Source: Acidocella sp.
GTDB taxonomy: Bacteria; Pseudomonadota; Alphaproteobacteria; Acetobacterales; Acetobacteraceae
NCBI GenBank assembly: GCA_031291755.1
Contig: JARLIK010000007.1
Span: 1 to 64,000, forward strand
Direction of reading: 5' to 3'
Length of the DNA stretch: 64,000 nucleotides
Of the stretch, positions 14,685 to 42,891 are shown piece by piece. The notes below the pieces were generated by a model that was given only the letters and a program-made list of their open reading frames with translations, was not told the origin of the DNA and searched no databases. The stretch's first letter is position 1. Every line of letters starts with the position of its first letter. Position numbers and translations under genes: made by a program.

Positions 14685-15014
14685 TTAGCTGCGGGCGAGG
14701 CGGCGTGCGGTGAGGACCAGGAGGCGGCGGTCTTCGGTTGAGCAGGCCCGGTAGAGCCGCACCAGGGCAAGTTCATCGCCCTGTAGGGAGCCGGTTTCGC
14801 CGGAGACAAGGTAGCCGAGCGAGGTATTCAGCACCTTGGCGATTCGTTCCATATTATCACGAACTTGGCCGGCACGGTCGGTCTCCCACTGGGCGATCGC
14901 GGAGCGGGAGACGCTTAGTTTGGCGGCAAATTCGTCTTGGGTGAGGTTAGCGGCAAGCCTAAGTGCACGGATGCGAGCGCCTACGGATTCGGGGGGTACA
15001 GGTCTTTTTGCCAT
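14685..15014 (-). CDS. XRE-family HTH regulator, probable phage repressor
   Basis: The 109-residue protein has a lambda-repressor-like HTH (ARIRALRLAANLTQDEFAAK, then LSVSRSAIAQWETDR; about residues 12-46) and a short helical C-terminal part without a protease domain. It is divergent from the HTH gene at 15118, with a 103-base gap that contains a 9-base inverted repeat flanking a TTGACA hexamer. This is the arrangement of a lysogeny switch, with this protein probably repressing rightward transcription. Because no LexA/CI-like autoproteolysis domain is present, induction would need another mechanism. Confidence 0.8.
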   Translation of the reverse strand: MAKRPVPPESVGARIRALRLAANLTQDEFAAKLSVSRSAIAQWETDRAGQVRDNMERIAKVLNTSLGYLVSGETGSLQGDELALVRLYRACSTEDRRLLVLTARRLARS

Positions 15015-15050
15015 AATTGCCTTTATAACACGGGCGTTCGCATGACGCCA

Positions 15051-15090
15051 TGTTAGTATTTATTGACAATTATAGTTAAACATACTAACA
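15051..15090. promoter_or_regulatory. Candidate repressor operator/promoter region
   Basis: The arms TGTTAGTAT (15051-15059) and ATACTAACA (15082-15090) form a perfect 9-base inverted repeat, and a TTGACA hexamer (15063-15068) lies between them on the plus strand. The region is the divergent gap between the XRE gene and the plus-strand HTH gene, so the repeat is the natural candidate for the repressor binding site. Arms separated by 22 bases would place half-sites about three helical turns apart, which could suit two dimers or cooperative binding. Confidence 0.6.
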
Positions 15091-15117
15091 AAATACCATC
15101 AAATAAGGGAGGATGGT

Positions 15118-15537
15118 ATGCCGCCAGCAAGACGATGGACGGAAGAGGCGGATCAGGCGATCCGGCAAATGCGTGGTAACGGGCAGACTTGGTCGGCAAT
15201 TGGATTATGTCTGGGACTGTCTAGGAATACGGTGATCGAGCGCGGCCGGCGGTTGTGTGCTTTGGCGCCTAAGCGGATTTTGATGGCACCGGTTGCAAGA
15301 ATTGTCTCGGATGATCCGAACAGAGGGGCGTTGCCGGCCGGGCATCCGCTGACATGGGGGTTGCTGTCGGATCAGCCGTTTCCAACCCCTGATGGGCAAC
15401 GCGGAGATTTTTTTGAAGGAGAGTCAAGCGTGGTGAGGCCGCTCATGCGGCGGGAGGCGGTGGATGCTGCTGTGCAGCGCGTGAGGCAGGATGATGCGGG
15501 CAATTACAGGTTGCGGCCGGGCGTATTGTTATTTTAA
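15118..15537 (+). CDS. Small HTH protein, first gene of the phage rightward operon
   Basis: The 139-residue protein begins with a helix-turn-helix-like region (RRWTEEADQAIRQMRGNG, then TWSAIGLCLGLSRNTVIERG) that resembles the Trp-containing N-terminal DNA-binding domain of GcrA-like or Myb-like regulators. The rest shows no motif I recognise. AAGGGAGG lies 5 bases before the ATG, a very strong ribosome-binding site. Being the first gene divergent from the repressor, it is likely an early regulator (Cro-like or activator). A small-terminase role cannot be excluded, since an HTH is also typical there, but the terminase large subunit is 2.2 kb away. Confidence 0.65.
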   Translation: MPPARRWTEEADQAIRQMRGNGQTWSAIGLCLGLSRNTVIERGRRLCALAPKRILMAPVARIVSDDPNRGALPAGHPLTWGLLSDQPFPTPDGQRGDFFEGESSVVRPLMRREAVDAAVQRVRQDDAGNYRLRPGVLLF

Positions 15538-15679
15538 ATAACAAATTTGTTCCGGTATTGGTAGTTGAAACGAGATTTCGTCTAACATGCCGTGCCGCTA
15601 ACAGGACAGCCATGCATGGATTGGTGGTTAGGACAGTGCTTGCTGTGATTTCGTGATCAAAAAAGGAAGGAATACTGCC

Positions 15680-16180
15680 ATGAATCGGATTCGCCATATT
15701 GAATTTTGTCAGCCGGCTGCAGGAATAACCGATAAGACGGAAAAGTTATTATGCAGTAGCAAAATAGCTGAGATTGATGCGGTGAGCGTGGTGGCGCGGC
15801 TTGAGGCTGCGGGGGCGACACTGCTGGCGATGCCGGGGCAAGGGTATTCGACGGGGCTGCGGCAGATGCGGTTTGATATCGTGCATACGGCGCTGGAGGC
15901 GTATGGTTGGGAGGCGCCGCCATTGCGGGCGCCGTCACCAGGCGCGGTGGCAATTTCAGAGATGGATGAGGTTTTTGGCTGGCTGCGGTTCATCCCGGAT
16001 GGTCATTACGTGATGCGCCGCGTGGTGGGGGCGCGGGCCTTGGTACATCCTCTAACAGGCCGGTATTTGTTCACATGGCGGCGGCTGGCAGCGACTTTGG
16101 GAGCCGATCATAAGTCGGTGCAGAGGTGGCATGGCCAAGGGGTTGCGATGGTAGTGAGCGCTCTGCGGGCCGCCGGCTAG
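15680..16180 (+). CDS. DUF6362-like phage protein
   Basis: The 166-residue protein has a pattern I associate with the DUF6362 family of alphaproteobacterial prophages: VVARLEAAGATLLAMPGQGY, then EAYGWEAPPLRAPSPGAV, MDEVFGWLRFI, and a C-terminal HTH-like LAATLGADHKSVQRWHGQG. A DNA-binding role is possible from the last segment, but no function is established. The ATG at 15680 is preceded by GGAAGG; a GTG further upstream (15653) is less convincing. It follows the small HTH gene after a 142-base gap and converges on a membrane-protein gene, overlapping it by 4 bases. Confidence 0.6.
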   Translation: MNRIRHIEFCQPAAGITDKTEKLLCSSKIAEIDAVSVVARLEAAGATLLAMPGQGYSTGLRQMRFDIVHTALEAYGWEAPPLRAPSPGAVAISEMDEVFGWLRFIPDGHYVMRRVVGARALVHPLTGRYLFTWRRLAATLGADHKSVQRWHGQGVAMVVSALRAAG

Positions 16181-16861: not shown

Positions 16862-17647
16862 ATGGTTCGGGTTCGGATATTTTGCGGGCTGGTGTTATCT
16901 GGGTGGTGTGTATTCGCTGCCATCGATGCACGGGCGGCTGAACCGGCGATTGTAGCGGCTGAGAGTAGCGTCCGACTCGGGATCGGCGTGGGGTATGGGC
17001 AGTATCAGGAAGGTTTGCCGCAGACGGCCAGTGGCGCCGGACCGCTGATTGGCGCGACGCTAGGGGGCAGCCGTTTGGGGTTTGGCGCCTATAGCGACGC
17101 CTACGCCGATGTTGAATATGATTTTTCCGCCGGATTTATGGGTGGGCATAACCAGGCGGTGCCAGTGCATGGCGCTGACACGTATAATACGGTGATCGTG
17201 CGGCTAGGTCTGGGCGTGCCGCTGTTGGGCGAAGCGGAGATTATTCCGTATGTGGCCGGGGGTTATCAGACTTGGAACCATGTTGGCGGGGCTACGCAAT
17301 TCTATGGAGCGAATTATCAGGCAGGACTGATTGGTGGCGGGCTGAGGCTCGATCTGGCAGCGGGGCCGGCGTTCGTGGTGAGTGCTTCGGTGGAAGGTTT
17401 GGCGGTGATTGGCGGGTCGGTCACGGTGCCGTCGGAAAATGCCAGTGGCGCGTTAGGGACGAGTGCACAGGAGCGGGTGTCGCTGGATGCGGATTACCGG
17501 TTAAACAGTGCATGGCATGCTTTCGCCGGGCTGGGACTGACGCATTATTCATTTACTGGCGCGCAACCTGGAGGTTTTGGATATCAGTTGCCGGAGTCTG
17601 GTAGTTTACAGGTAAGTTCGACCTTTGGGGTGGCCTACGGATTTTGA
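16862..17647 (+). CDS. Outer-membrane beta-barrel protein
   Basis: The 261-residue protein has a signal peptide (MVRVRIFCGLVLSGWCVFAA, cleavage around DARAAEP) and then alternating hydrophobic/Gly-rich strands typical of small OMPs (IGVGYGQYQ, YADVEYDFSAGF, VIVRLGLGVPL, FAGLGLTHYSF). It ends in YGF, with a C-terminal Phe as required for barrel assembly. Its position, between early phage genes and the terminase, suggests either a moron that alters the lysogen surface (for example blocking a phage receptor) or a host gene. The start ATG has GAGGG about 12 bases upstream, so its exact start is less certain. Confidence 0.65.
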   Translation: MVRVRIFCGLVLSGWCVFAAIDARAAEPAIVAAESSVRLGIGVGYGQYQEGLPQTASGAGPLIGATLGGSRLGFGAYSDAYADVEYDFSAGFMGGHNQAVPVHGADTYNTVIVRLGLGVPLLGEAEIIPYVAGGYQTWNHVGGATQFYGANYQAGLIGGGLRLDLAAGPAFVVSASVEGLAVIGGSVTVPSENASGALGTSAQERVSLDADYRLNSAWHAFAGLGLTHYSFTGAQPGGFGYQLPESGSLQVSSTFGVAYGF

Positions 17648-17763: not shown

Positions 17764-19128
17764 TTGTCTGAGGCGGCCCAAAGCTTTTCTGGGTTTGCTG
17801 AGGCGGTTTTGCAGAAGGCTGGGCAGGTGCCAGCGGCGCATCATAGGGCGTTGATCGGCCGGTTGGAGGATATTCTGGATGGCCGGTGTGACCGGCTGAT
17901 GGTTCAGATGCCGCCCGGTTATGCGAAATCGACCTATGGTTCGATTTTGTTTCCGGCATATTTTTTGAGCCGGCATCGAGGCAGCCAGATTATTGCGACG
18001 GCGCATACGGCGTCATTGGCGGAACATTTTGGCCGCCAGGTGCGGCAGACGATTTTGGAGAATGAGGCAAGCTTGGGGCTGAGGTTGACGAAGGATAGCC
18101 GGGCGGCGGGCCGGTTTGGGCTCGATGACGGTGGTGCCTATTTTGCTGCCGGCGTGCGCGGACCAATTACCGGACGACGGGCGGATTTGATATTGATTGA
18201 CGACCCGGTGAAGTCATGGGCGGAAGCCGAGAGTCTGGTTTTCCGGGATGCGTTGCATGACTGGTACCGGGCGGAACTAACGGCGCGTTTGAAGCCGAAG
18301 GGCCGGGTGGTGCTGTTGATGGCCCGCTGGCATGAGGATGATCTGGCTGGAAGACTGATGCAGGCGGGCGGGGCTTGGCAGGTTTTGCGCTTGCCGGCGC
18401 TGGCCGAAGCGGATGATCCGTTGGGGCGGGCTGAAGGTGAGGCGTTGTGGCCGAGTTGGCAGGACGCTGGGGAGATTGCTCGGCGGCGTGTGGAAGTGGG
18501 CGAGCGGGCGTTTTCGGCAATATATCAGCAACGGCCTCGGCCACCTGACGCGGCTTTGTTTAATGTGAGGAATGTAGAAATTATACCAGTGGCGCCGGAG
18601 TTGACGCGCTGTATTCGGGCCTGGGATTTGGCAGCGAGCCTGCCGGGTGCTGGTAAAAACCCGGATTATACGGTTGGGCTGAAGCTAGGGATCACGCTGG
18701 ATAATAAAATTATTATATTGGATATCATCCGCATACAGGCGTCGCCGGCGCAGGTGGCGGCGCGAATTATAGCGACTGCAAAGGCTGATGGCGTGGTGAC
18801 GCTGGTGGCGTTACCGCAAGACCCGGGCCAAGCAGGTTTGGCGCAGGTGGCGATGCTGACGAGTGGGTTGCTGGGCTATAATGTTAATGCCTCAGTGGAG
18901 AGCGGGCCGAAGATTATGCGGGCGATGCCGGCGGCGACGCAAATGGATGCGGGGAATATTGCGCTGCTGGCGGCGCCGTGGAATGAGAATTTTTTAAACG
19001 AGCTTCAAGCGTTTCCAGAATCTGACAAGGATGATCAGGTGGATGCGCTGTCACGCGCTGTGAATACGCTGGCGACGACCAGCGGGACGCCGGCGCGGCG
19101 TTTGAACGTGCCGCTGTTAGGGCGATGA
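17764..19128 (+). CDS. terL: Phage terminase large subunit
   Basis: The 454-residue protein has an N-terminal ATPase domain with a Walker A-like loop (MPPGYAKST, about residues 49-57) and a Walker B strand (LILIDDPVKS, about residues 142-151). A C-terminal nuclease-like domain begins around residue 285 (IRAWDLAAS with a conserved acidic residue). It packages DNA into the prohead, docking on the portal protein encoded next. The frame begins at TTG 17764 with a weak GTGAGACG upstream, which fits the absence of an ATG near the conserved start. No small-terminase gene is found directly upstream, which is unusual for a complete phage. Confidence 0.9.
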   Translation: MSEAAQSFSGFAEAVLQKAGQVPAAHHRALIGRLEDILDGRCDRLMVQMPPGYAKSTYGSILFPAYFLSRHRGSQIIATAHTASLAEHFGRQVRQTILENEASLGLRLTKDSRAAGRFGLDDGGAYFAAGVRGPITGRRADLILIDDPVKSWAEAESLVFRDALHDWYRAELTARLKPKGRVVLLMARWHEDDLAGRLMQAGGAWQVLRLPALAEADDPLGRAEGEALWPSWQDAGEIARRRVEVGERAFSAIYQQRPRPPDAALFNVRNVEIIPVAPELTRCIRAWDLAASLPGAGKNPDYTVGLKLGITLDNKIIILDIIRIQASPAQVAARIIATAKADGVVTLVALPQDPGQAGLAQVAMLTSGLLGYNVNASVESGPKIMRAMPAATQMDAGNIALLAAPWNENFLNELQAFPESDKDDQVDALSRAVNTLATTSGTPARRLNVPLLGR

Positions 19129-19149: not shown

Positions 19150-20544
19150 ATGTTCGAGACGATTTGTGAAACGGTACCGGCTGATCGTGCACTGCCGCCG
19201 CGGGTGCGCCGGTTGGAGATATTTCGCCGGGTATTGGATGGTTCAATTTATAATGGGCTGCCTTATGAATTTCATGAGGAGCGCAACTCTGCTGGCGAGT
19301 ATGTGCCGCTGCGGATGCGTAAACCATCGGTCCGGTATGGGTTGTGCCGGATTGTGGTTGAGGATTCGGTGGCGCTGCTGTTCAGTAATGCGCATTTTCC
19401 TGCCGTGGAAAGTGCTGATGCGGAACTGATGCGTGCGATTGCCGATATCGTTAGTGAGACGCGGCTGAATGAGGTGATGATCGACGCTGCGATCAAGGGT
19501 TCGGTGGGGTCGGTTGCGATTTTACTGCGGATATTGCATGGGCGGGTGTTTTTATCGGTTTTGGATAGTTTGTATCTGACGCCGCAATGGGACCCGCAAG
19601 CCCCTGATACTTTGAAGTTCGTGAAGGAGCTTTATCAGGTTAGCGGGGAGACGCTGATCACGCAGGGCTATGAGGGGATTGATGCGGCAGGCACTTATTG
19701 GTTCCAGCGCGCTTGGGACGTGGTGAGTGAGGTTTGGTACATGCCATGGCTGGTGAATGATAGTTTTGCCGGGCCGCAGATTGATGAGGCGCGTAGTGTG
19801 GAGCATGGGTTGGGATTTGTGCCGATGGTATGGATCCGTAATCTGCCAGGCGGTGATTCGGTGGATGGGGCTTGTACATTTCGAGCTGCTATCGAATCGA
19901 ATATTGAGATTGACTATCAGTTGAGTCAAGCCGGCAGGGGGCTGAAATATAGCTCGGATCCGACATTGTTGATCAAGGAACCGGCGGTAGGAGATTCCGA
20001 AATTGTTAAAGGTGCCGGCAATGCGCTGGTGGTCTCTGAAAAGGGCGATGCCAAATTGCTGGAGATAGGCGGAACGGCGAGTGAGGCCGTGATTTTATAC
20101 GTTCGGACCTTGCGTGAATTGGCGCTGGAGGCGGTGCATGGAAATCGTTCGAGTGCGGACAGGTTGACGGCGGCGCAATCGGGGCGGGCGCTCGAGATGA
20201 TGAATCAGGGGCTGATCTGGCTGACTGATAATTTACGGATCTCTTACGGTGATGGCGGCGTACTGGCGGTTATCAAAATGATTGTGCAGGCCTCACAAGT
20301 GTACCGGCTGCGGGTGATGGGAACAGTGATTGCGCCGCTTAATTGCGCCGAGCGGCTGACGCTGCGATGGCCGCGCTGGTATCCGCTCTCGGCGGATGAC
20401 CGGTTGAAAGAAGCGCAAGCAATTTCGACGCTGGTGAATGCTGGACAAATTTCGCGCGAGACGGCGGTGAAAAGTTTGGCGGCGACACTGGGGGTGAGCG
20501 ATGTGGCTGCCGAGTTGGATGCAATTCGTGAGGATGTTGAATGA
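19150..20544 (+). CDS. Phage portal protein (SPP1 gp6-like)
   Basis: The 464-residue protein lies directly downstream of terL and has portal-family features. The N-terminal region has LEIFRRVLDGSIYNGLPYE. The core is beta-rich, a long central helix region is followed by SSADRLTAAQSGRALEMMNQ, and the C-terminus has helical repeats ending in AAELDAIREDVE. It should form the dodecameric portal ring at one head vertex, used for DNA entry and tail attachment. It overlaps the scaffold-like gene by 4 bases. Assignment rests on position, length and the RLTAAQSGRALEMM portal motif. Confidence 0.85.
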   Translation: MFETICETVPADRALPPRVRRLEIFRRVLDGSIYNGLPYEFHEERNSAGEYVPLRMRKPSVRYGLCRIVVEDSVALLFSNAHFPAVESADAELMRAIADIVSETRLNEVMIDAAIKGSVGSVAILLRILHGRVFLSVLDSLYLTPQWDPQAPDTLKFVKELYQVSGETLITQGYEGIDAAGTYWFQRAWDVVSEVWYMPWLVNDSFAGPQIDEARSVEHGLGFVPMVWIRNLPGGDSVDGACTFRAAIESNIEIDYQLSQAGRGLKYSSDPTLLIKEPAVGDSEIVKGAGNALVVSEKGDAKLLEIGGTASEAVILYVRTLRELALEAVHGNRSSADRLTAAQSGRALEMMNQGLIWLTDNLRISYGDGGVLAVIKMIVQASQVYRLRVMGTVIAPLNCAERLTLRWPRWYPLSADDRLKEAQAISTLVNAGQISRETAVKSLAATLGVSDVAAELDAIREDVE

Positions 20545-20939
20545 GTGAGGAGATAGCAGATGGTCATGATCAGGAAAATTGGCGTTCGCGTGCTGAGTTG
20601 GCTGAAGCGGCTTTGGCAGAAGCGAGGTCCACTGCCGCCGATAAGTTGATTCGGGCAGAGTTGAAGGCAGAGGCCATACGGGCGGGAATGGTTGACCTGG
20701 ATGGGTTGAAGCTGTTGGATTTAGGTGAGGTGACGCTTGACCGGCAGGGCGAGGTTGCTGATGCGCCAGCCGTATTAGCCAAGTTGAAGCGTGCGAAGCC
20801 TTGGTTGTTTGGCCAGGGGGTTTCATCTTCGACAGCGGTACATGCTCCACGACCGGAGCCGCCGCGGATGCGTCACGCCAATGAATTATCGCATGAAGAA
20901 TGGCTGGCGGCGCGGGCAGCATTGCTGCGCCGCCGATAG
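20541..20939 (+). CDS. Putative capsid scaffolding protein
   Basis: The 132-residue protein is very charged and helical at its N-terminus (EEIADGHDQENWRSRAELAE, then LAEARSTAADKLIRAELKAE), with a conserved IRAGMVDLDGLKLLDL segment in the middle. It ends in a basic helix (WLAARAALLRRR). Its place between portal and major capsid genes, its small size and coiled-coil character are the pattern of a scaffolding protein that guides prohead assembly and is lost on maturation. No protease domain is visible, so processing, if any, would need another enzyme. Confidence 0.65.
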   Translation: MSEEIADGHDQENWRSRAELAEAALAEARSTAADKLIRAELKAEAIRAGMVDLDGLKLLDLGEVTLDRQGEVADAPAVLAKLKRAKPWLFGQGVSSSTAVHAPRPEPPRMRHANELSHEEWLAARAALLRRR

Positions 20940-21027
20940 TGGAAGAACAGACTATAATTTGACTGGTCAGCGGCGGATGGCGTCGCGGTTGCACATTTCC
21001 TGTGCCAAAATTTAAAGGACATTGCCT

Positions 21028-22350
21028 ATGGGCATTCAAAATTTTCCGGCTGCGCTGCAGCCGATTATCATGCAAGGGTTTTTGGAGCGTGAATTTGAGA
21101 TGTCTCTCAAGTCGCGCCTTGGGTATCGGCTGATTGCTGATCGGGAGGAATTTTCGGTTGGTATTGGTGAGACGCTGACGAAGACGCGGGCCGGGCTGAA
21201 GCCGAGTGTGACGGTGCCGCTGGTGGCCTCAAACAATACGAACCTGGATAATGGTTTGACATCGACCAATTGGGGTGTTGAGCAATATACCATCAGTCTA
21301 AATTTTTATGCGGCGACGCAGGATTTGAACATGGTGACAAGCCGTGTGGGGATTGCGACGCAGTTCTTGCAGAACGCGGCGACCAATGGTGAGCAGGCGG
21401 CACGCAGCCTGGATGAGTTGGCCCGCAATGCTTTGTTTGCACCGTATTTTGGCGGCAATACGCGGGTCGCTTCGACCCTGACGGCTGCAGGCGCCAGTGT
21501 TGAGGTTGATGATATTCGTGGCTTTCAGACTGTGTTTATTAACGGCGTGCAGCAGAGTGTGTCTTCGACATATCCTCTGACAGCAACAGTGGGCATGAAT
21601 ACATATAATATTATTGGAGTGACGCCCGATGCAGTGAATATTTCCACGGCGCCGAATGGCGTCTCGGGTGCGTTATCGTTCTCTGGCAATGTTACGGTGG
21701 CTGATGGTACTTCCAGCAATGGTGTGAAGGCGGCGACGGCGAGTTCAATTGTACGGCCGGCCAACCGGACGACTACGGCGAATTTGCAAGCAACGGATAC
21801 GTTGACGATGGGAAATCTGCTGGATGCGGTTGCGCTGTTACGGCGTAACGCGGTGCCGTTGGTTGATGGTGTGTATAATTGTTATCTGGACCCGGTGTCG
21901 GCCCGGCAGTTGTTTGCGGATTCTGATTTCAAACAGTTGTTCCAGGGGGCTACTTCGTCGAACCCGGTGTTCCGCCAAGGGATGGTGAGTGACTTTTTGG
22001 GGCTGCGATTTATCACGACGACAGAAGCCTATGTGCAAAATCATCCAACGATTGGCGGGCTGTATGTACGGCGCCCGATTGTGTGTGGTCAGGGCGCGTT
22101 GATCGAAGGCGATTTTGCTGGGATGGCGGCAGAGGATGTGGCGCCGAAAGATAGTCTGGTGAATATTATTGATAATGTGGCGATGGTAACGCGCGAGCCG
22201 ATCGACCGGCTGCAGCAGATTATTGCGCAGAGCTGGTATTGGATTGGTGGGTTTTGCGCGCCGTCTGATACGACGACGACGCCGACAACGGTGCCGACGG
22301 CGACCAATGCGAACTATAAGCGCGCGGTGATGATCGAGCATATTGGGTAA
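21028..22350 (+). CDS. Major capsid protein
   Basis: The 440-residue protein follows the scaffold-like gene. It has an N-terminal helical region (FPAALQPIIMQGFLEREFEM), a long beta-hairpin-like stretch (FSVGIGETLTKTRAGLKPSV), a helix (FLQNAATNGEQAARSLDELA), and a Thr/Ser-rich insert (about residues 170-245) that could be a surface domain. A C-terminal part with VRRPIVCGQGALIEGDFAG completes it. It is consistent with the HK97 capsid fold, but fold assignment is by position and sequence style, not by structure. The ATG at 21028 has AAAGGAC upstream; a TTG two codons earlier is in frame. Confidence 0.8.
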   Translation: MGIQNFPAALQPIIMQGFLEREFEMSLKSRLGYRLIADREEFSVGIGETLTKTRAGLKPSVTVPLVASNNTNLDNGLTSTNWGVEQYTISLNFYAATQDLNMVTSRVGIATQFLQNAATNGEQAARSLDELARNALFAPYFGGNTRVASTLTAAGASVEVDDIRGFQTVFINGVQQSVSSTYPLTATVGMNTYNIIGVTPDAVNISTAPNGVSGALSFSGNVTVADGTSSNGVKAATASSIVRPANRTTTANLQATDTLTMGNLLDAVALLRRNAVPLVDGVYNCYLDPVSARQLFADSDFKQLFQGATSSNPVFRQGMVSDFLGLRFITTTEAYVQNHPTIGGLYVRRPIVCGQGALIEGDFAGMAAEDVAPKDSLVNIIDNVAMVTREPIDRLQQIIAQSWYWIGGFCAPSDTTTTPTTVPTATNANYKRAVMIEHIG

Positions 22351-22361: not shown

Positions 22362-22670
22362 ATGGCAACAGGTTCTACGCAACCGTTCCGGCCCGCCGGG
22401 ACATCTACGATTGCAGCTTCGACCAGTTCGGTTAGTACCGCATTGACGGGCGGGGGTAGCGCCGTGCTGGTGTATAACAGCTCGGCAGCAACGGCTTATT
22501 TTCGGTTGGGAGCGGCGACAAGCGTCGCGGCTTTGCCGAGTGATACGCCCGTGCCGTCTGGCGCACAGATGCTTGTAGATGGCGGGCCGTTTGTTAGTTA
22601 TGCCGCGGTTGTTTTGGCGGCAGGCACTGGCTTGGTGTATTTTACTCTGGGTGACGGGGACACATATTGA
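22362..22670 (+). CDS. Small Gly/Ser/Thr-rich virion protein (possible head decoration)
   Basis: The 102-residue protein directly follows the capsid gene by 11 bases. It is rich in Ser, Thr, Ala and Gly and predicted mainly beta (SAVLVYNSSAATAYFRLG, TGLVYFTLGDGDTY). Small beta-rich proteins at this position are often capsid decoration proteins that stabilise the head, and that is the most likely role here. I do not recognise a specific family. It overlaps no neighbour. Confidence 0.55.
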   Translation: MATGSTQPFRPAGTSTIAASTSSVSTALTGGGSAVLVYNSSAATAYFRLGAATSVAALPSDTPVPSGAQMLVDGGPFVSYAAVVLAAGTGLVYFTLGDGDTY

Positions 22671-22671
22671 G

Positions 22672-34285: not shown

Positions 34286-36841
34286 ATGCCGACTATTGGA
34301 CAATTACCACCGGCCAGTTCTGTTTCAGATATTGATGAGATTCCGATTTTTCAGAATGGCCAGACGCTGGCAGCGACTCGCGCGCAGATGCTGGCGGGGG
34401 TACAAGCCGCGTTAAGTTTGCCGCAGGACACGTTGTTAGGCGGCGTTGGGCCGGGAAATGCGGCGCCGGTGGCTATTAACATCGGCGCGAATCTCGCACT
34501 GTCTGGCAATACATTGTCGGCAACTGCGGCGCCTTTCGTGATTGCGGGTCAGGCTACGGGTACGGTACCGGAGCCGGCGGATGTTGTGCCGTTGAGTCAA
34601 GCTGGCAACAATTTCTCTGTTAGTTACGCAAATTTTATGGCAGGCATGGCTAATGTCGCCGGATTGCCGGCTGGTGCGATGACGGCCACGGCGGCTGGGG
34701 GGAGTGCCTTGCGCAGTCTCGCAGCTCTGGCGGGAAATGCTGTAGCGATTGAAGATTTTGGCGCCGCTGGGGATGGCGTAACAGATGATAGTGCAGCCCT
34801 TTTGGCTGCATTGGCATCGGGAAATCCGGTCCGCCTGGGCCCAAAAACCTATGCGATTGCTGGTGAGTGCGATATTTCAGGGGGCACTTGTACGTTGCTT
34901 GGTGTGCCGGGCCTCACAGCTATACGTCGTTCGGCGCAATCCAAGCTTGGTCTGTCATCTCCGGTAGCATGGATTAGCATTGCCTCAGCCACTCTATTCA
35001 TCGACGGCATTATCTTTGATGCCAATAGTGCGCTGACGGCGGATGATTACGCGGTGATTATTCAGCCGGAGTGTGTGAAGTCGATGATCACGCGTTCGGT
35101 ATTTAAAAATGCCATGGGGCCGATGAATGGTTCGGGTTTGACGATTGCCGCCAGCGACCCGGTATTGACTCAACACCATATTGAGAGCTCCGAATTTTTC
35201 GGCAACGCTGTCAATGGTGTTCGCGTTTATGCCGCTGATGCGGTTAGTATTACGAATTGCCATGCTCACGATAATACTCAGAATGGCATTCTGGTTGACA
35301 GCCAGGACCCGACTTTCACGCTCAAGATTCGGGAATTACAGATTGTTGGGAACACCTGCTGGAATAATAATTGCGGCATTATTGTTGGAAATTTCAATGT
35401 AACAAATACCGGTCAACTGGTTTATGGTAACGCTAACCCAGATGTTCTTGGCGCAGTCATCGCGGCCAATAACTGTTATGACAACAGCGGTTACGGTATC
35501 TATATTTCCGGGCGGAATATTTTAGTTTCAGGTAATTTATGCACCAATAACAGCTCGATTGGCGGAAGCGGTGCGGGTATTCTGTGCGACACTGGATATT
35601 GCAAGGTCACGGGCAATATGATCAGTGGGGCCTCAGCGTTTGGTATTGATTGTGGTGGATCGATTTATACTGAGGTTGCGAATAATTACGTCAATGGTGC
35701 GTATTGCGGGATTAATATTGGCGGTGGCCGCTATTGTATAGCGAGGGATAATTTTATTCAGGATTCGACAGCTATTGCAATTGCGGCGCAGAATGTCGAA
35801 TCCGATGGCCGGGGCACAAACTTCAACCTGACTTGTGTGGGTCTCTCGATCATCGGCAATTGGATTACCTATGCGGGTGAGGTTTATGGCATCATGGTCC
35901 GTGATGCTGCGCAGGAGATTCTGGTTGCTGATAATGTGATTTTTGCAAATCCAGGAGCGGATTTGACGCGTGCGCTGTCTGCTTACACGGATAGTGTCGT
36001 GTTGCGTGGCAATCTTCTGAACTATACCGAAATCTGGCCGGTTAATCCTGCTTTGGTTAACGGTGTTTACACACTGATTGTGCCGGATATCGCTGATCAT
36101 GTGGCGATATCGCAATCGAGTGCGCCGATTGCTAGTATCATGACTTCTCAGGCTAATGCGGTGGAAGGTCAGATCGTATATTGCAAGCTGATCAGCGGTG
36201 GCGTTGACTATACGCATGCGTCGGTTAGTTTTTCTGGCTCGGGCGGCAATGCGGCGGCTTCGGCCTGGATCTCTGGTGGGGCCATTTTGGGGATCCAGAT
36301 GGCAAACAACGGCAGTGGTTATGGGCCGGGTACGACCGTGACGATCAACGGCGATGGCAGTGGCGCTACCGCTGTTGTGCAGGTAGGGTTGCCGATTTTG
36401 CAAAATCGTAAGCTCAGCATTGATTGTTTGAGTAGCGTGACATTTTCCGCCGCAGGCAGCGTGCCGGCGCAGAGCAACTGGACTGGTTCACCGGTGACCG
36501 TGCCTGCTGGAGCCAGTATCGATTGGATCGGCGCTAATGGCGGCTGGCGAGCACAGCGGTTTTCACAGAGTGATTATGTGTCGCCGAATGGGGATGGCAG
36601 CATGACACTGCGTACCCAGTCAGGTGATATTTCATTGCACCCGGCGGGTTCGGGCGTGGTGCGGATATTGTCGGATTCGGAATCAACGGGTGCGGTTGAG
36701 CTGATTGGCCGGGGATCGCCTCTCAATGTAGTGGCAGCGCCGCCAGGGTCGAGTTTTCGTAATTTGAACGGTGGCGCGGGTCAGACCTTTTGGGTCAAGC
36801 AGGCAGGCACTGGCACGGCGAACTGGGTTGCTATCGCCTAA
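34286..36841 (+). CDS. Tail spike with right-handed beta-helix (pectate-lyase-like)
   Basis: The 851-residue protein has two copies of an N-terminal attachment-type module (TIGQLPPASSVSDIDEIPIF and the related PEPADVVPLSQAGNNFSVSY). A beta-helix domain then begins near residue 150 with AIEDFGAAGDGVTDDSAALL, the well-known entry motif of the pectate-lyase-like superfamily. Many short strands with Asn stacks follow (NGILVDSQDP, NNCGIIVGN, GYGIYISGRNILVSGNLC). Such spikes often cut surface polysaccharide; an active enzyme is not proven. The C-terminal 150 residues form a separate globular end. Confidence 0.85.
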   Translation: MPTIGQLPPASSVSDIDEIPIFQNGQTLAATRAQMLAGVQAALSLPQDTLLGGVGPGNAAPVAINIGANLALSGNTLSATAAPFVIAGQATGTVPEPADVVPLSQAGNNFSVSYANFMAGMANVAGLPAGAMTATAAGGSALRSLAALAGNAVAIEDFGAAGDGVTDDSAALLAALASGNPVRLGPKTYAIAGECDISGGTCTLLGVPGLTAIRRSAQSKLGLSSPVAWISIASATLFIDGIIFDANSALTADDYAVIIQPECVKSMITRSVFKNAMGPMNGSGLTIAASDPVLTQHHIESSEFFGNAVNGVRVYAADAVSITNCHAHDNTQNGILVDSQDPTFTLKIRELQIVGNTCWNNNCGIIVGNFNVTNTGQLVYGNANPDVLGAVIAANNCYDNSGYGIYISGRNILVSGNLCTNNSSIGGSGAGILCDTGYCKVTGNMISGASAFGIDCGGSIYTEVANNYVNGAYCGINIGGGRYCIARDNFIQDSTAIAIAAQNVESDGRGTNFNLTCVGLSIIGNWITYAGEVYGIMVRDAAQEILVADNVIFANPGADLTRALSAYTDSVVLRGNLLNYTEIWPVNPALVNGVYTLIVPDIADHVAISQSSAPIASIMTSQANAVEGQIVYCKLISGGVDYTHASVSFSGSGGNAAASAWISGGAILGIQMANNGSGYGPGTTVTINGDGSGATAVVQVGLPILQNRKLSIDCLSSVTFSAAGSVPAQSNWTGSPVTVPAGASIDWIGANGGWRAQRFSQSDYVSPNGDGSMTLRTQSGDISLHPAGSGVVRILSDSESTGAVELIGRGSPLNVVAAPPGSSFRNLNGGAGQTFWVKQAGTGTANWVAIA

Positions 36842-36857
36842 CACAGAGGAATTTTGA

Positions 36858-39014
36858 ATGACAACGATTGCTCAGCTTCCCGCGGCCGCGTTTGTGGGTG
36901 CCAATGACCTGTTGCCTTTATCGCAGAGTGGGGCGCTGTATTCGGTAAAGGTTTCGCAGCTGAATGCCGGCTTGCAACCGCTTTTGTCGGTGCCGACAGG
37001 GGATCTTCTGGGGCGGCAGAGTGCGGGGGCAGGCATGCCGGAACCGCTTAGTGTTGGCACTGGGCTGGTGCTCGCTGGAGGCGTACTGAGTGTCAACGGC
37101 GCGGATCATGCGGGCTATCCGGTGCAGGCGAGTTTGTTAGTTAGTGACGATCTTGTTGTGAGTAGTGCTGGGTTGCCTGGGTTGCTGCCTGTCACGGCAT
37201 TGCGCGGATTGTTCAGCGCTGGCGACGGTGTTAATATAAATAGTGGCGGCGTTATTAGCGCGACAGCTTCAGCGGTTGCCGGGCCGGCCGGGCCTGCCGG
37301 GCCTGCCGGTGCTATGGGTCCGGCTGGGCCGCAAGGTCTGGTGGGGCCAGCGGGAACGGGGCTTGCAGCGCCGGTTGCCGGTAATTCGGCTAGTTCAATT
37401 GGTGCCAATGATTATGTGGCGATATGGCAAAATGGTGCGAATGCCTGGATGCCATACGGGCAGTTTATCGGCGGTCAGACAATCAATCAATTGCCGGCCG
37501 CGGCGCCGGCTGCAGACAGCGATTCGCTATTGGTGGCGCAGGGTTCAAATGCTCTCTGCGTGCAAAGTTTCGGCGCGGTGTGGTCGTATTTGCGGGAGAA
37601 ATTGCCTGGCTTGAAATCTGGCATTGTCGAACTGACAGCTAATACGGTGCTGGATGCTACAGCCCATAACGACCGGATATTGATTGCCAGTGCGCCACTG
37701 ACGCTGACGGCAAATTTCGTGAATATGGGGGCGGGGTTTTCCTGCACGTTGATTAATCTTAGTTCAGGCGCGGTGAGTTTCGGAACTGGTATTACTTCGG
37801 GCTCGCAAGTGAGTTCACTGCCGCCAGGGGCCTCAACGTCTCTGTTGGGACTGAGCTATTCGGGTGGATCGCTGGTGTGGTGGAACGGTGTGGTGTCTAA
37901 TGTACCCACCATCACGGTAGCGCCCATTACCGCGCCAGGTGCCGACGCACCGTTTAGCGTGGCGGGCAGTGTTTTTAATGAAGCACCTGGTGCTTTGGAT
38001 TATTCCACGGATGGCGGTGTTACCTGGCAGGCGGCGGTAAGTCCGGTGATCACACTGGACGCGTACAGCTTCACCGCGCTGGGGCTAAGTGGTGGTACCT
38101 ATACCGTGATGGTGCGGGATCATGCCAATGAGGCAGTCGTTGGGGTTTCCAACAGCTTTAGTATTTTGCCGCCGTCGGTTGTATTCAATGCTGTGGCTAG
38201 CGCCGCTATTGTCAATTTGCCATTGACCGTTAGTGGAACCGCGACACCAGCCGGAACGGCGGTTGAGGTTGGGCTGTCTGGCAGCGCCACTGTAGCCCCG
38301 GTAAGTTGGGTGGCGGCTAGTTTAAGCAGCAATGGGTGGAGTGCTGAGCTTACGCCAAGCGTGACAGGCGTGATTTATTTATGGGCGCAGCAAACGGCTG
38401 CTACGAATGTCCAGGTTATTTCCGGCCCGGTGAATGTCGTTACCGCGACGCTGACGATTTCGGTTCCGGCAAGCGGGATAGTTGACACGGTAATGACCGT
38501 GACGGGGACGGTCAGCCCGATTGCCGATGTTGTTAATTTACAGCTGAGCACAGAGAATAATGTGGCGCCGACCAGTGGATGGAGTGCATCGGCCAATGCC
38601 GGTGGCAGTTTTAGCATTGCGCTGACGCCAAGTGCCGCTGGAACGATATATGCCTGGGCGCAGGATCCGGTTACCGGCATTATTGCGGTCTCCTCGGCTA
38701 TTGTTGTTTCGGCTCCGGCGCCGGTGACCTATAGCATTAATAATCCGGGTGGCAGTTACACGCATGGGCTTGGGGTGATTCCGATTAATGGCGGCGTGAC
38801 GCCTGCGCAGGCGGTGGCAACGCAGGTGGCGCTCTCTACTTCCGGTAGCGTTGTGCCGACAACAGGATGGCAGACCGCCAGCAATATTTATGCTGATACG
38901 CTGTGGGCTGTTTATTACCCAACGCCGGCTGTGGCGGGGAATTACTATGTGTGGGTGGAAACGACGGCAGGTACGGCACAGCTTGTCAGCAACTTTACCA
39001 TAGCTGTATCGTAA
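36858..39014 (+). CDS. Tail fibre with collagen-like segment and Ig-like repeats
   Basis: The 718-residue protein repeats the attachment module of the preceding spike gene (TIAQLPAAAFVGANDLLPLS, and a second copy TINQLPAAAPAADSDSLLVA). A short collagen-like Gly-X-Y run lies near residues 137-170 (AGPAGPAGAMGPAGPQG). The C-terminal half contains several Ig-like repeats with the pattern LTVSGTATPAG, WVAASLSSNGWSAELTPSV, and the related GTVSPIADVVNLQLSTENN. The fibre probably contacts the cell surface. Its stop overlaps the next gene by 1 base (TAATG). Confidence 0.8.
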   Translation: MTTIAQLPAAAFVGANDLLPLSQSGALYSVKVSQLNAGLQPLLSVPTGDLLGRQSAGAGMPEPLSVGTGLVLAGGVLSVNGADHAGYPVQASLLVSDDLVVSSAGLPGLLPVTALRGLFSAGDGVNINSGGVISATASAVAGPAGPAGPAGAMGPAGPQGLVGPAGTGLAAPVAGNSASSIGANDYVAIWQNGANAWMPYGQFIGGQTINQLPAAAPAADSDSLLVAQGSNALCVQSFGAVWSYLREKLPGLKSGIVELTANTVLDATAHNDRILIASAPLTLTANFVNMGAGFSCTLINLSSGAVSFGTGITSGSQVSSLPPGASTSLLGLSYSGGSLVWWNGVVSNVPTITVAPITAPGADAPFSVAGSVFNEAPGALDYSTDGGVTWQAAVSPVITLDAYSFTALGLSGGTYTVMVRDHANEAVVGVSNSFSILPPSVVFNAVASAAIVNLPLTVSGTATPAGTAVEVGLSGSATVAPVSWVAASLSSNGWSAELTPSVTGVIYLWAQQTAATNVQVISGPVNVVTATLTISVPASGIVDTVMTVTGTVSPIADVVNLQLSTENNVAPTSGWSASANAGGSFSIALTPSAAGTIYAWAQDPVTGIIAVSSAIVVSAPAPVTYSINNPGGSYTHGLGVIPINGGVTPAQAVATQVALSTSGSVVPTTGWQTASNIYADTLWAVYYPTPAVAGNYYVWVETTAGTAQLVSNFTIAVS

Positions 39015-41152
39015 TGACTCTGCTGTTTACGGCGACCGGGGCGGCTTTGGCCTGCGGCCCCAACCAGCGCGCCTTGGTCGCCGCGTTGCCAGAGGGCAGC
39101 GTTGTGCCAGCCGGAAATTTTATCGGGCCGTATCCGTTATCAATCAGCGGACTTTCCGGTTGGTGGGACGCTGGGATTTTGAGTGGGCTGCGTGATGTGA
39201 ATGGGCTTCCTGTCGTCGCATCAGGCAGCGTTGTCGGCAGCTTATTTGATAAATCGGGCAACTCGAAGTCACTTCTGCCCTATCATATCGCTGCGGATAC
39301 GACGCCGGTGGTGACCATCGCAACGCCTCGGGTGAATGGATATCTCGGTGCTGTTGGCGCGCCGGATGCGGCCATTGCGACGTATGGTCCGACGCTGGAC
39401 CCAGATTGGGGACTTGCGCACGAGGGGTTTGAACTCGGTGCTGGTGTGGGTTGGACGCGGTATCTGGTGTGGACCCGGCCAAATTTGCGTCAGGCCACCT
39501 ATTATGGAAATGCGGAGCCGATACCGCTGGTGCATTGCACGGCGTCCAACAGCACGATTCTGCAGACGGATAGTGCGGGGACTAACTTGACGTTATTTCC
39601 GGGGACGGCCAGCCTGACGGTTCTCAGCACTGCTGTGACCCGGCGGCACAGCCATGCCGTGATTATGCGCAACACACCTGGTGTAGGTGTTGATGTGTGG
39701 CTGGATGGCGTGCAAGTGGCCAGCGCGATTGCGAATCCGCTGGGTGTTACCGCCAATGGGCAGGTATTATTTTTGCATGATGGTACGGCGCAAGGCTCGG
39801 CGCAATGCTGGTTTCATGAAGCCGCAACCTGGGAACATGCGTTAAGCGCAGCTGATATCGCGAGTCTGGTCGCTTGCCAGGCGCGTTGGGTGCTGGGGCC
39901 GCGTAAGGGTGTGAATCTGCTGATGATGGGGCAGTCGAATGCTGCGTGGTTTGGGGTATCAGGTGGTGCGCTGGCGTTGGCGCAGGGGATTGCCTGGTAT
40001 TGTGGTGCGGCCTCCTATGCTGTTTCAGAATCACTTTCTGGGACATATAGCGCGCCGGACCGTTATACGGTGATTTTTGGGCATCCGATTTCCAATTCCT
40101 CGCCGCCGATATTTCCGGTCGGTGCTGCCAATGGCACGTTCATCACCAATCCGGGTGATGGGTCCGACCCCTCAACGTGGGCGGCAGGGCCGGATTTTGC
40201 GGCGGTTACGGCATTTCTGAACGGGGCATCGGCGATTGTTCCTGTTATGGATGATGCAGATATCGGCTTCGTTCTCTGGCCTTGGTCCGAGCAAGACAGC
40301 ACGATGCCTTACGCCAACAAGGCTTTATACAAGGCGACGGTGCTGCGGCTGCTTTTGTTGACCCGTAATCTGTTGGGGCGCAGCGCTGCGCAATTGCCGT
40401 TGCTGGCGTGGAATGCGATTCCCTATGAGACCAACGATGGCGTGCAGATGGTGCGTGAATCGATGAATGATCTGGCGGCTGATCCGGTCAATAATATTTC
40501 GATGTTTATTGATCAGACCGCGGATTCGAATCCGCTGAATTCGATATATAATCCGGCGACAGGTGTATTTTTTGGGGGTGATCCGCAGCATCGGGATCAG
40601 CCGGATTTGCTGCGCTATGGCCGTATTGGGGCGCATGTGGCGGGACGGCTGGCGGTGGCGCAGGGGCTGAGTGATTCCATCGTAGTATCAGCGTTGCCGG
40701 CGACGGGTCTGCCGGCCAAAGGCGGGCCGCAAATTGCGCATGTGTATCGTGCCTCGAATACCAGCCTTGTGCTGACGGTGGCGCATGATTCCGGCAATGA
40801 TTTGCTGCTGCCTTTGCAAGCAGCGGATGGCGCCGGGTTTGCAGTGATGGATGGCGGCACGGTAGCAGCACCAGGGCCGATTATTTCGGCGATTGCAGCG
40901 GTGCGTGTTGATGCCACGCATATTACGGTAACGCTTGCTAGCGCCATCAGCAATCCATCAAGCGATGTGTCGTTTTTCTATCCGTACGGGAGCACGCAGA
41001 TTGGGCGTGGCAATGCGGTGACCGACAATGCTTCGAGCATTTCACCACCGGCCAACTGGAATATCGGCAATGATCTGGGAAGCGCGTGGTCGGTGAACAT
41101 GCCGCTGCAAGCGACAACCTATCCGATAACTTTGTCCGACACGCCGCAATGA
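39014..41152 (+). CDS. Tail fibre with LamG-like and SGNH/acetylesterase-like domains
   Basis: The 712-residue protein (ATG 39014, directly at the previous stop) has a jelly-roll, LamG-like region at about residues 140-280 (WTRYLVWTRPNLRQATYYGN, VDVWLDGVQVASAIANP). A catalytic-like domain follows with the block I motif NLLMMGQSNAAWFG near residue 302 and a block V Asp-x-x-His motif (GDPQHRDQPD) near residue 523. GQSN and DxxH are the hallmarks of the SGNH carbohydrate acetylesterase (CE6/SASA) family. It could remove acetyl groups from host surface sugar. The frame is open before the ATG but that part is antisense-like overlap. Confidence 0.75.
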   Translation: MTLLFTATGAALACGPNQRALVAALPEGSVVPAGNFIGPYPLSISGLSGWWDAGILSGLRDVNGLPVVASGSVVGSLFDKSGNSKSLLPYHIAADTTPVVTIATPRVNGYLGAVGAPDAAIATYGPTLDPDWGLAHEGFELGAGVGWTRYLVWTRPNLRQATYYGNAEPIPLVHCTASNSTILQTDSAGTNLTLFPGTASLTVLSTAVTRRHSHAVIMRNTPGVGVDVWLDGVQVASAIANPLGVTANGQVLFLHDGTAQGSAQCWFHEAATWEHALSAADIASLVACQARWVLGPRKGVNLLMMGQSNAAWFGVSGGALALAQGIAWYCGAASYAVSESLSGTYSAPDRYTVIFGHPISNSSPPIFPVGAANGTFITNPGDGSDPSTWAAGPDFAAVTAFLNGASAIVPVMDDADIGFVLWPWSEQDSTMPYANKALYKATVLRLLLLTRNLLGRSAAQLPLLAWNAIPYETNDGVQMVRESMNDLAADPVNNISMFIDQTADSNPLNSIYNPATGVFFGGDPQHRDQPDLLRYGRIGAHVAGRLAVAQGLSDSIVVSALPATGLPAKGGPQIAHVYRASNTSLVLTVAHDSGNDLLLPLQAADGAGFAVMDGGTVAAPGPIISAIAAVRVDATHITVTLASAISNPSSDVSFFYPYGSTQIGRGNAVTDNASSISPPANWNIGNDLGSAWSVNMPLQATTYPITLSDTPQ

Positions 41153-41165: not shown

Positions 41166-41495
41166 ATGGAGCCTGAGGATATGTCGTTGGTGCGTGCCGA
41201 TGTTGCCGCGATGCGCGGCGATTTGATGACGGTGCGGCAAAATATCGGCGTGCTGGAAGCGCGTGCTGATGCGTTGGAGAACTGGCGTGAGCGTTATCTT
41301 AGCCAGGAGGAGCAGGTGGTGGCAAAATTATTCAACAAGGTTGATGAACTGGTGGCAAACCTCAGCGCCATGCGGGCGGATTTTGCTCGCATGCGTGGTG
41401 AGCGGGATTCTGAAGGGCGAATTACCATCGCGATTGTGGGCTTGCTATCAGCGCTGTGCGGCGGTCTAGCCACCAATATTTTTCACGGCCCTTAA
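41166..41495 (+). CDS. Small coiled-coil protein with C-terminal membrane segment
   Basis: The 109-residue protein has heptad-like helices in its first 80 residues (VRADVAAMRGDLMTVRQN, VAKLFNKVDELVANLSAMRA) and a C-terminal transmembrane segment (ITIAIVGLLSALCGGLATN). It is the first gene after the fibres and before the lysozyme gene, where holins or antiholins often stand. A holin-like or membrane tether role is possible; no family is recognised. Confidence 0.6.
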   Translation: MEPEDMSLVRADVAAMRGDLMTVRQNIGVLEARADALENWRERYLSQEEQVVAKLFNKVDELVANLSAMRADFARMRGERDSEGRITIAIVGLLSALCGGLATNIFHGP

Positions 41496-41497
41496 AC

Positions 41498-42010
41498 ATG
41501 GATAATTTTGCGCGTTGTTTTGCCTTTACGCTGGGGGCCGAGGGCGGCTATTCGGATAATGCTGGAGATCCTGGCAACTGGACCGGTGGTGCGGTGGGAC
41601 GCGGTGAGTTGAAGGGCACGAAATTTGGTGTCAGCGCTAGTGCTTATCCGCATCTGGATATTATCAATCTGACTGAGCCGCAAGCTGAAGATATTTACCG
41701 GCGCGACTATTGGGCGACGTTGCAGGGTGATGAATTGCCATTGCCGATCGCCATTGTGGCGTTTGATGCGGCGGTGAATGCCGGGCCGCGGCGGGCGGTG
41801 AACTGGTTGCAATTGGCCGCCGGGCAGCCCGCTGACGGCGTGTTAGGCCCGGCCACGCTGGCGGCGCTGCGCCGTGGCGATGCGTTGCTGCTGGCGCGCG
41901 AGGCGCTGGTCCGGCGGCTGGAATTTTCGACCCAGCTTTCCACCTGGCCCAGCTTTGGTCTTGGCTGGTCGCGCCGGATCATCGCGCTGGCGGGCGCGTT
42001 GACAGCATGA
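41498..42010 (+). CDS. Endolysin (GH108-type lysozyme)
   Basis: The 170-residue protein starts with the GH108 catalytic region FTLGAEGGYSDNAGDPGNW (Glu15 as the acid) and continues with the family's typical TKFGVSASAY and EDIYRRDYWATLQGDELP, then FDAAVNAGPRRAVNWLQ. It hydrolyses peptidoglycan at the end of the lytic cycle. No signal peptide is seen, so export should depend on the holin. It overlaps the next small membrane gene by 4 bases. Confidence 0.92.
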   Translation: MDNFARCFAFTLGAEGGYSDNAGDPGNWTGGAVGRGELKGTKFGVSASAYPHLDIINLTEPQAEDIYRRDYWATLQGDELPLPIAIVAFDAAVNAGPRRAVNWLQLAAGQPADGVLGPATLAALRRGDALLLAREALVRRLEFSTQLSTWPSFGLGWSRRIIALAGALTA

Positions 42011-42303
42011 AAAATTTGATTGGTCAGCTGCTGAGCGATGGTCATGGTCAGATTGATGAGCAGGCGCTGATTTCGCTGCTGGGGGCTGCGGTTTTCTTTG
42101 GCTTGGAAATCTACTCGGTGGCCTGGCGTGGCGAGAATTTTGATCCGTTTGGCTTTGGCGCCGGGATTGGGGCATTGCTCGGCGCCACCTCGGCTGGGTT
42201 TGGCCTGCGGGCGCGTTGGACGCCCGATGCACCTGACAGCCCGGACATCGACCCGGTGACCGGGCGCTACATAGGAGATATCAATGGCAGGAATTCTCGC
42301 TAA
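42007..42303 (+). CDS. Putative holin
   Basis: The 98-residue protein has a short N-terminus and two hydrophobic segments (LISLLGAAVFFGLEIYSVAW, GFGAGIGALLGATSAGFGL), then a charged C-terminal tail. Size, position after the endolysin and the 4-base overlap fit a holin, which opens the inner membrane for the endolysin. No precise family is recognised, so the call is by context. Confidence 0.65.
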   Translation: MKNLIGQLLSDGHGQIDEQALISLLGAAVFFGLEIYSVAWRGENFDPFGFGAGIGALLGATSAGFGLRARWTPDAPDSPDIDPVTGRYIGDINGRNSR

Positions 42304-42652
42304 ATTTTTGGCACCTCTGGCACCTTATTTGATTGCGACATTTTTAACACTGGCTGGTTCAGCCTATATGGTTCATCTGCGGCACGAACTGGCGGCGGCC
42401 AGCGTCGCTAATGCGATGTTGCAGCAAACCAATCAGGCCAATGCGGCTGCGATTGCGGCATATCAGGCGCAGGCGGTGAAATGGAATGCAGCAATTGATA
42501 CGCTGGGGGCGCAGACTCAGACCAGCGATTATGCGCTTCACATTATTAACGATCATATCGCGGCACAGCCGCCCGGTGCGGATGCGGCGGTTGCGCCAGT
42601 GCTGGCGCAGGCTTTGGCGGATATTGGAAAATTACAGGAGAACAAGCAATGA
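42284..42652 (+). CDS. Rz-like inner-membrane spanin
   Basis: The 122-residue protein has an N-terminal membrane anchor (LAPLAPYLIATFLTLAGSAYM) and a long Ala/Gln-rich coiled coil in the periplasm (LRHELAAASVANAMLQQTNQ, then ANAAAIAAYQAQAVKWNAAI). This is the architecture of the Rz inner-membrane spanin. It overlaps the holin-like gene by 20 bases and the following lipoprotein gene by 4. Confidence 0.75.
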   Translation: MAGILAKFLAPLAPYLIATFLTLAGSAYMVHLRHELAAASVANAMLQQTNQANAAAIAAYQAQAVKWNAAIDTLGAQTQTSDYALHIINDHIAAQPPGADAAVAPVLAQALADIGKLQENKQ

Positions 42653-42891
42653 AACCGTTCCTGATGGGGCTGCTGCTGGCTGGTTGCGCGCAGGCCGCAC
42701 CGCCGGTTACCCGGATTGTTACGGTTATGCCGGTGATTCCTGCCAGCTTGCTGCATTGTGCTCCGGCCCCGGATGTGCCGGTAGCTAGCAGCCAATCGAT
42801 GGTGGCGCGTTATATCGTTGCACTTTGGCAGGCTGGGCAGGATTGCCGGGCGCATGTGGCGGCGATCGCACAGGCGACGGTCATGCCATAA
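42649..42891 (+). CDS. Rz1-like outer-membrane spanin lipoprotein
   Basis: The 80-residue protein starts with a lipoprotein signal and lipobox (MKPFLMGLLLAGC). It contains Pro-rich sequence after the lipid Cys (AAPPVTRIVTVMPVIPAS) and two further Cys (HCAPAPD and DCRAHV). It fits the Rz1-type outer-membrane spanin partner of the Rz-like protein, which completes lysis by fusing membranes. The start ATG overlaps the Rz-like stop. It is the last gene of the phage-like element; azlD begins 7 bases later on the other strand. Confidence 0.7.
   Translation: MKPFLMGLLLAGCAQAAPPVTRIVTVMPVIPASLLHCAPAPDVPVASSQSMVARYIVALWQAGQDCRAHVAAIAQATVMP

Follow-up and report, generated by a model that had tools for sequence, protein, structure and literature searches.

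A 64,000-nucleotide stretch of an Acidocella sp. genome (GCA_031291755.1, contig JARLIK010000007.1, positions 1 to 64,000, forward strand; hereafter the window) carries a phage-derived gene cluster of ~28 kb (14685-42891). We interpret this element as descended from a contractile-tailed phage of the phiKX type, domesticated and fixed in the chromosome, co-diversifying with its hosts, and probably working as a gene transfer agent (GTA). Vertical, selected domestication of the cluster in Acetobacteraceae is very strongly suggested by the sequence comparisons below. Packaging and transfer of host DNA by the element is likely, and is the best explanation of the strong constraint on terminase and capsid. 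A first-pass annotation of the window had proposed a domesticated element; the proposal is supported by a common chromosomal place, scarred losses, congruence with the host RpoB tree, and low ratios of nonsynonymous to synonymous substitution (dN/dS).

Chromosomal place and co-diversification

Within the genus (38 genomes; 37 at first, with G245 added later), a GT2 glycosyltransferase gene, the repressor, and the cluster follow one another at a place common to 15 of the 18 genomes read (G245, G031, and the window genome, G000, included), a check that the first-pass annotation had set beforehand. Two open reading frames (ORFs), a phosphatase gene, an FGase gene, and the GT2 gene precede the repressor and cluster in 12/14 genus genomes, as far as contigs allow, and GT2 adjoins the repressor at 21 of 24 operator loci. 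The exceptions to the common place are G004 (other left flank), G036, and G028 (divergent copy). The right flank consists of a RecX-like gene (below the Pfam cut-off) and then ribosomal L20 in G007, G009, G012, G013, G026, G032, and G034, and of AzlC and TonB in the window's clade (G000, G006, and G031). TerL (large terminase) of the lineage, at least 58% identical, was found in 29/38 genus genomes, in some as fragments at contig ends, and a capsid relative was found in 26/38, two of them divergent (G024, 64%; G028, 54%). Named TerL relatives were Acidocella metagenome-assembled genomes and one from Rhodospirillales.

Four genus sites without the structural cluster were read. The site in G024 holds GT2, the repressor, a piece of a DDE transposase, the RecX-like gene, and L20; that in G003 holds GT2 and the repressor; that in G019 holds the repressor, the operator, and the first operon gene, near AzlC; and that in G028, where the contig stops, holds the operator and the first gene. 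Because the repressor or operator remains at all four, losses from a cluster-bearing ancestor are the simplest reading, and the clean empty site named in the first-pass annotation as counter-evidence was not seen among them. No GT2 match was obtained in four further cluster-less genomes (G008, G017, G021, and G033), which lie outside these four sites.

Across the family sample (299 Acetobacteraceae genomes, 102 genera; capsid relatives at E 1e-60), 133 genomes hold a capsid relative. The lineage (capsid identity of at least 66%) is present in 95 genomes from 38 of the 102 genera, full or nearly full in 91 and partial in 4, and is single copy in 93 of the 95 carriers (G297 has it at three places and G286 at two). 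The remaining 38 capsid-matching genomes lie at 51-58% (one partial), some with two copies, as is expected of phages; no capsid row fell between 58% and 66% in this sample. The ordered cluster was present in 27 of 34 loci read (13/14 in the genus set and 14/20 in the family set, where up to 40 kb was read; several were cut by contig ends); among the family loci, G245 is a genus member and G137 runs to the contig end. The lineage element was absent from G159, G227, G337, G100, G231 (TerL only), and G201 (divergent tail region), which were counted as other phages. A class sample of 240 genomes gave a capsid match in the window's own genome only, the capsid had no match in a plasmid collection, and the cluster had no near DNA match among phages.

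Element trees were compared with RpoB, chosen with a motif filter; RpoB of the window genome sits on a different contig. In 22 genomes, the head and tail trees each had 15/19 splits in common with RpoB, with no strong conflicts, and distances correlated with those of RpoB (Mantel r, 0.87 for head, 0.81 for tail, and 0.73 for fibre). This tree was made without G022 (contig stops before the fibres) and G137, and G013, G004, G014, G028, and G142 had no RpoB match. In 41 genomes, a six-gene set had 20/38 splits in common with RpoB (r, 0.67), against a mean of 0.29 and a maximum of 3 in 200 label shuffles, and TerL alone and capsid alone each had 17. G125, G172, G167, and G237 were left out of this set (element genes missing); RpoB was unmatched in G067, G094, and G124, partial in G064, G074, G117, and G208, and double in G133. 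Flanks had 2-12 ORFs in common within genera (two genera with several members read).

The common place within the genus, the congruence with RpoB, and the repressor and operator left at loss sites make it very improbable that the element is an active temperate phage integrating via host recombinases or a helper and spreading horizontally, even though ordinary phages and prophage-like regions are among its relatives at 51-64% and its chromosomal place differs between genera. No replication gene was found among the scanned window proteins, and no integrase lies within ~40 kb of the clusters among the matches listed, so the neighbouring integrase or replication block that the first-pass annotation had named as a refutation did not appear. 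Of 487 capsid relatives in IMG/VR, the best 80 (L024-L103) fall within the lineage identity range (at least 74%), and some "viral" virome contigs may thus be bacterial chromosome. Direct terminal repeats were seen in 0/80 of these loci, most of which are cut stretches, and the phiKX1 integrase, the sole query tried, had no match in the same mostly cut set.

Selection and the tail

Between the window and G031, dN/dS, which the first-pass annotation had suggested as a test for head and tail genes, was 0.03-0.22 in 29/31 measured element genes, with terminase (0.09), portal (0.07), and capsid (0.03) among the most constrained. The two faster genes are a tape-measure remnant (0.45) and the ORF after the tape-measure place (0.30). 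Eight host neighbours gave 0.04-0.20, with dS of the same order as in the element. Four other genome pairs were similar and less clean (several dS values were saturated in G000/G006), the highest usable element value being 0.48 (g22362, G237/G306). Three rows (g22579 in G000/G031, DUF6362 in G007/G020, and GT2 in G009/G032) were discarded because they had few codons with dN of 0.7-0.9, taken as wrong frames, and g38903, GT2, and FGase were absent from the G000/G031 output. Residues that we take to be the ATPase and nuclease motifs of TerL were invariant in 29 sequences.

The tail-chaperone pair (26685-27157, +; end approximate) is encoded through a -1 frameshift at GGGAAAC (26981-26987). The zero-frame chaperone ORF stops at 26990, and the -1 frame of the window runs ~56 codons further. 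The preserved frameshift in the first-pass annotation held up in 8/8 genomes examined, with GGGAAAC at or shortly before the chaperone stop and the -1 frame open for 49-57 codons beyond. ORF lengths were steady across genera: 142-145 amino acids (aa) in 28/28 for the tail tube and 847-855 aa in 23/26 relatives for the beta-helix spike.

The same annotation had recorded the tape measure as missing, which we correct: its position is taken by a 256-aa ORF (27173-27943, +) whose C-terminal ~40 residues match the conserved C terminus of the longer tape-measure-like proteins found in related genomes. (The low-complexity filter was off in the tape-measure blastp, so weak matches within proline-alanine-rich stretches are uncertain.) The protein is long in relatives that carry phage gene sets (a 742-aa candidate in phiKX1 and 660 aa in a prophage-like copy in G024). 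Five element proteins from other genera are 320-444 aa and match one another; the 660-aa protein is matched at both ends by those of G066, G122, and G135 and at the C terminus only by those of G237 and G306. Where genus members have the gene at this position, its product is 244-336 aa long and the common part is essentially the C-terminal ~40 residues; nine genus genomes have no tape-measure ORF there, and G013 and G012 carry one with the tape-measure C terminus after the lysis genes. From these sequences, the tape measure is a short, fast-evolving remnant, eroding while the frameshifted chaperone persists, and a short tail is the simplest reading of its length.

Eroded tape measures, patchy family presence, and several genus losses would also fit a cryptic prophage that has been passed on vertically for a long time, continues to decay, and has no present function, one of the readings given in the excerpted text of PMC12142844. 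We regard this as quite unlikely given purifying selection in nearly all measured genes, open-frame lengths conserved across genera, and the heptamer found in every genome examined. Somewhat less improbable, though still unlikely, is a domesticated phage whose particles serve another end, either head-keeping bacteriocin-like killing or an anti-phage role, with DNA transfer incidental. The contractile tail, the conserved spike and its constant length, the lysis module, and the eroded tape measure all suit such particles; the low dN/dS of terminase, portal, and capsid and the invariant TerL residues do not. The particle-type bacteriocin raised by the first-pass annotation is less likely on that ground.

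Set against a vertically inherited GTA are the following observations. The fibre tree had 13 splits in common with RpoB and 2 strong conflicts (22 genomes), an 11-gene concatenate had 13/19 with 1 conflict, and 18/38 splits of the 41-genome comparison were not common, with 2 strongly supported conflicting pairs. Between genera, flanks gave 0-2 stray matches and the chromosomal place differs, which implies either an early relocation of the element or an early transfer between genera, both of them compatible with the data. Family presence is patchy (95/299), the identity gap is not absolute (the prophage-like G024 capsid is at 64%), the capsid gene of G243 has an internal stop, and G036 has its early genes and TerL on different contigs. 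Tape-measure erosion could reflect a failing tail. Carbon content was no lower than in two phage relatives in 4/5 proteins: element means equalled or exceeded both phages for portal, capsid, sheath, and gpJ, and only the tube was below phiKX1. The carbon-poor amino-acid bias reported for RcGTA is thus not seen as a GTA mark here. Particles, packaged DNA, and transduction are inferred for an element known from its genes.

Gene content and control

Profile searches (PHROGs and Pfam) bear out the ordered contractile virion and lysis cluster first described for 14685-42891 (~32 plus-strand ORFs and a divergent helix-turn-helix [HTH] repressor), running from packaging through head, contractile tail, baseplate, and fibre to lysis with host genes on either side. 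The left flank is the GT2 glycosyltransferase (12030-14678, +; 882 aa; Pfam PF00535, 1.7e-34), and the right flank is AzlC (43205-44005, -; Pfam AzlC), with a TonB receptor as a further host gene. Integrase, transposase, and replication families had no match among the scanned window proteins, in line with the first-pass annotation, and the three tyrosine-integrase matches of the window genome lie on contigs C7, C2, and C3, with none on the window contig (C26). No small-terminase family matched in the cluster either, again as first described, and a DUF6362 protein occupies that position. The longest att-like direct repeat at the junctions was 12 bp, which exceeds the 90th percentile (10) obtained from 100 base-shuffled pairs, and was not read as att because one copy falls within the repressor gene and the other within AzlC.

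The early region opens with an HTH_3 repressor (14685-15014, -; Pfam, 7.2e-13; 80-99% identity within the genus) and a divergent operator/promoter (15015-15117) with a conserved TTGAC box between GTTAG/CTAAC half-sites. A strict repressor-side promoter pattern (15052-15089 in the window) was found at one place per genome in 24/38 genus genomes, with 0 matches for the reversed-pattern control; the repressor was adjacent at 23 and the first operon gene at 24 of these 24 loci. A single operator per genome suggests, at the sequence level, a one-operator switch. The repressor is among the most conserved proteins and survives loss of the structural cluster in G003, G024, and G019; it may have an additional role. 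The first operon gene (15118-15537, +) encodes a small HTH-like protein, conserved in relatives, that resembles GcrA weakly (E 0.013, below the cut-off). The DUF6362 protein (15653-16180, +; Pfam PF19889, 2.5e-9) is a candidate small terminase (TerS) from its position. In the G142 locus (L163), ~11 kb separates its gene from TerL, versus <2 kb in other species. The protein encoded at 16862-17647 (+) has a signal-peptide-like start (by eye), no family match, and no assigned role; its gene is patchy (in the early region of the window's clade, G004, and genus g120, and also close to the element remnant in G019 and G028) and is perhaps an inserted host gene.

Packaging and head genes, all on the plus strand, comprise TerL (17764-19128; PHROG 38, 1.4e-84), portal (19150-20544; PHROG 145, 8.6e-14), a scaffold-like protein (20541-20939; PHROG 194, 5.7e-4), and major capsid protein (21022-22350; PHROG 1357, 1.9e-35), followed by four head-tail connector-region genes (22362-24541; starts at 22362, 22579, 23064, and 23714) in an order conserved in relatives. 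The connector-region PHROGs (14539, 14605, and 13532) have no assigned function, and gene 22362 had no PHROG. G007 and G020, two species (L117-L118 and L132-L133), have ~3 kb of extra DNA between the portal and scaffold genes.

The tail genes, also on the plus strand, begin with the contractile sheath (24694-26247; PHROG 23, 3e-47) and the tube (26260-26688; by position; PHROG 12993, no assigned function, 2e-37). Beyond the tape-measure place lie two gpU/gpX-like tail genes (27940-28826; by position), the first matching PHROG 21362 (no assigned function, 6.9e-39) and the second conserved in relatives' loci. Baseplate hub, spike, and wedge genes (28816-32515; gpD, gpV, gpW, gpJ, and gpI-like; PHROGs 52, 6142, 120, 6, and 26379; gpI by position) precede a fibre/tailspike region (32525-41152; PHROG 863, Pfam beta-helix) that includes the 851-aa beta-helix protein; its last part (38903-41152) had no family match. 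A PHROG named DNA polymerase on a fibre ORF (E 5.6e-4, 49 residues) was taken as chance. The lysis module (41166-42891, +) consists of a holin-like ORF (assigned by position), a GH108 endolysin, a 98-aa protein, and Rz and Rz1 spanins (PHROGs 315, 89, and 456; Pfam PF05838, 2.5e-19). Against solved structures, the capsid had no relative up to E 1, TerL had only two matches (E 0.29 and 0.92), and the spike matched epimerases and a glucanase weakly (best E 0.0036).

The sequence shows a repressor placed divergently over one conserved operator-promoter, with the terminase, head, contractile-tail, spike, and lysis genes in one operon-like run. In the mechanism that we propose, once repression is lifted in some cells, the terminase, with no element-specific replication or excision to serve, would package pieces of host DNA into heads, and short contractile tails with the beta-helix spike would bind related cells. 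Endolysin and spanins would lyse the producer and free the particles, and recipients would take up and recombine the DNA.

Comparison with known systems

R-type tailocins resemble the element in contractile tail and lysis genes. Headless tailocins have no terminase, portal, or capsid; here, in contrast, TerL, portal, and capsid are present and constrained, which separates the element from that class. It also differs from temperate phages and prophages, with no integrase, transposase, or replication family matched among the scanned window proteins and, among the matches listed, no integrase near the clusters.

The nearest cultured relatives found are the Komagataeibacter phages phiKX1 and phiKX2 (53 kb; ~51% in capsid). 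The 50 kb of phiKX1 that were read contain collinear matches to 16 window genes (one over 62 residues only), at 52% for sheath, 51% for capsid, and 41% for portal, and no match to the window TerL. phiKX1 has an integrase and a small terminase, both annotated, in addition to its long tape-measure candidate, and the prophage-like G024 copy (C79, L219-L220) has a ParA-type ATPase, SSB, and helicase downstream. That these autonomous relatives retain an integrase, a small terminase, a long tape measure, or replication-type genes supports domestication and GTA function for the window element.

The tail of RcGTA is non-contractile, and the element differs from it in having a sheath and a Mu/P2-type (gpVWJ) baseplate. 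RcGTA-like (type I) membership is further contradicted by the GTA_TIM marker (PF13547), which matched in 3/120 family genomes (one strong) and not in G000. The strong match (E 3.9e-131) is at G162:C335:1492-2334, in an Acetobacteraceae genome, and is possibly contamination or a rare transfer. Table 3 of PMC6821227, as excerpted, gives a count of 0 for RcGTA-like clusters among 62 genomes of Acetobacterales. What the element has in common with RcGTA-like clusters, as described in the available parts of PMC9662315 and PMC10883770, is caudovirus-derived head-tail genes that are chromosomally fixed and co-diversify with hosts.

The GTA definition in the excerpt of PMC9662315 has six features. For caudovirus-derived proteins forming a caudovirion-like particle, the agreement is one of protein similarity alone. 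Full endogenisation in the host is seen in the fixed place within the genus and in loss sites that retain repressor or operator. Mostly vertical inheritance with co-diversification is seen, the exceptions above apart, in the splits in common with RpoB (15/19 for head; 20/38). The other three features (mostly random host DNA in the particle, incomplete packaging of its own genome owing to a limited head size, and delivery of the DNA to other cells) are properties of particles; on the first the sequence gives intact TerL motifs, and on the second an element length of ~28 kb. BaGTA (Bartonella) and BhGTA (Brachyspira) are likewise phage-derived, with particles that package host DNA; the tails of these and of other GTAs, where seen, are described as non-contractile in that excerpt. 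A contractile GTA, or this element as a GTA, was not reported in the openly licensed PMC literature that we searched.

Acetobacteraceae regions among Sphagnum virome contigs (PMC12142844), as far as the excerpted text describes them, resemble the element in their gpVWJ baseplate, flanking AzlCD, and lack of an excision/replication module, and probably belong to this lineage. That text left them as temperate or degraded prophage and holds none of the tests of orthology, co-divergence, and selection made here.

Taken with these systems, we lean towards a separate, anciently domesticated GTA with a short contractile tail, inherited mainly by descent in Acetobacteraceae, a family with few or no RcGTA-like clusters. 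Few lineages are known to have GTAs, and a contractile candidate spread through a family of an order in which the survey has no RcGTA-like cluster suggests that phages were recruited for DNA sharing independently and repeatedly. If this is true, a contractile phage lineage was a source of DNA-donating particles and its tape measure eroded step by step, and environmental hosts become available for asking which forces maintain GTAs and whether the type of tail is important.

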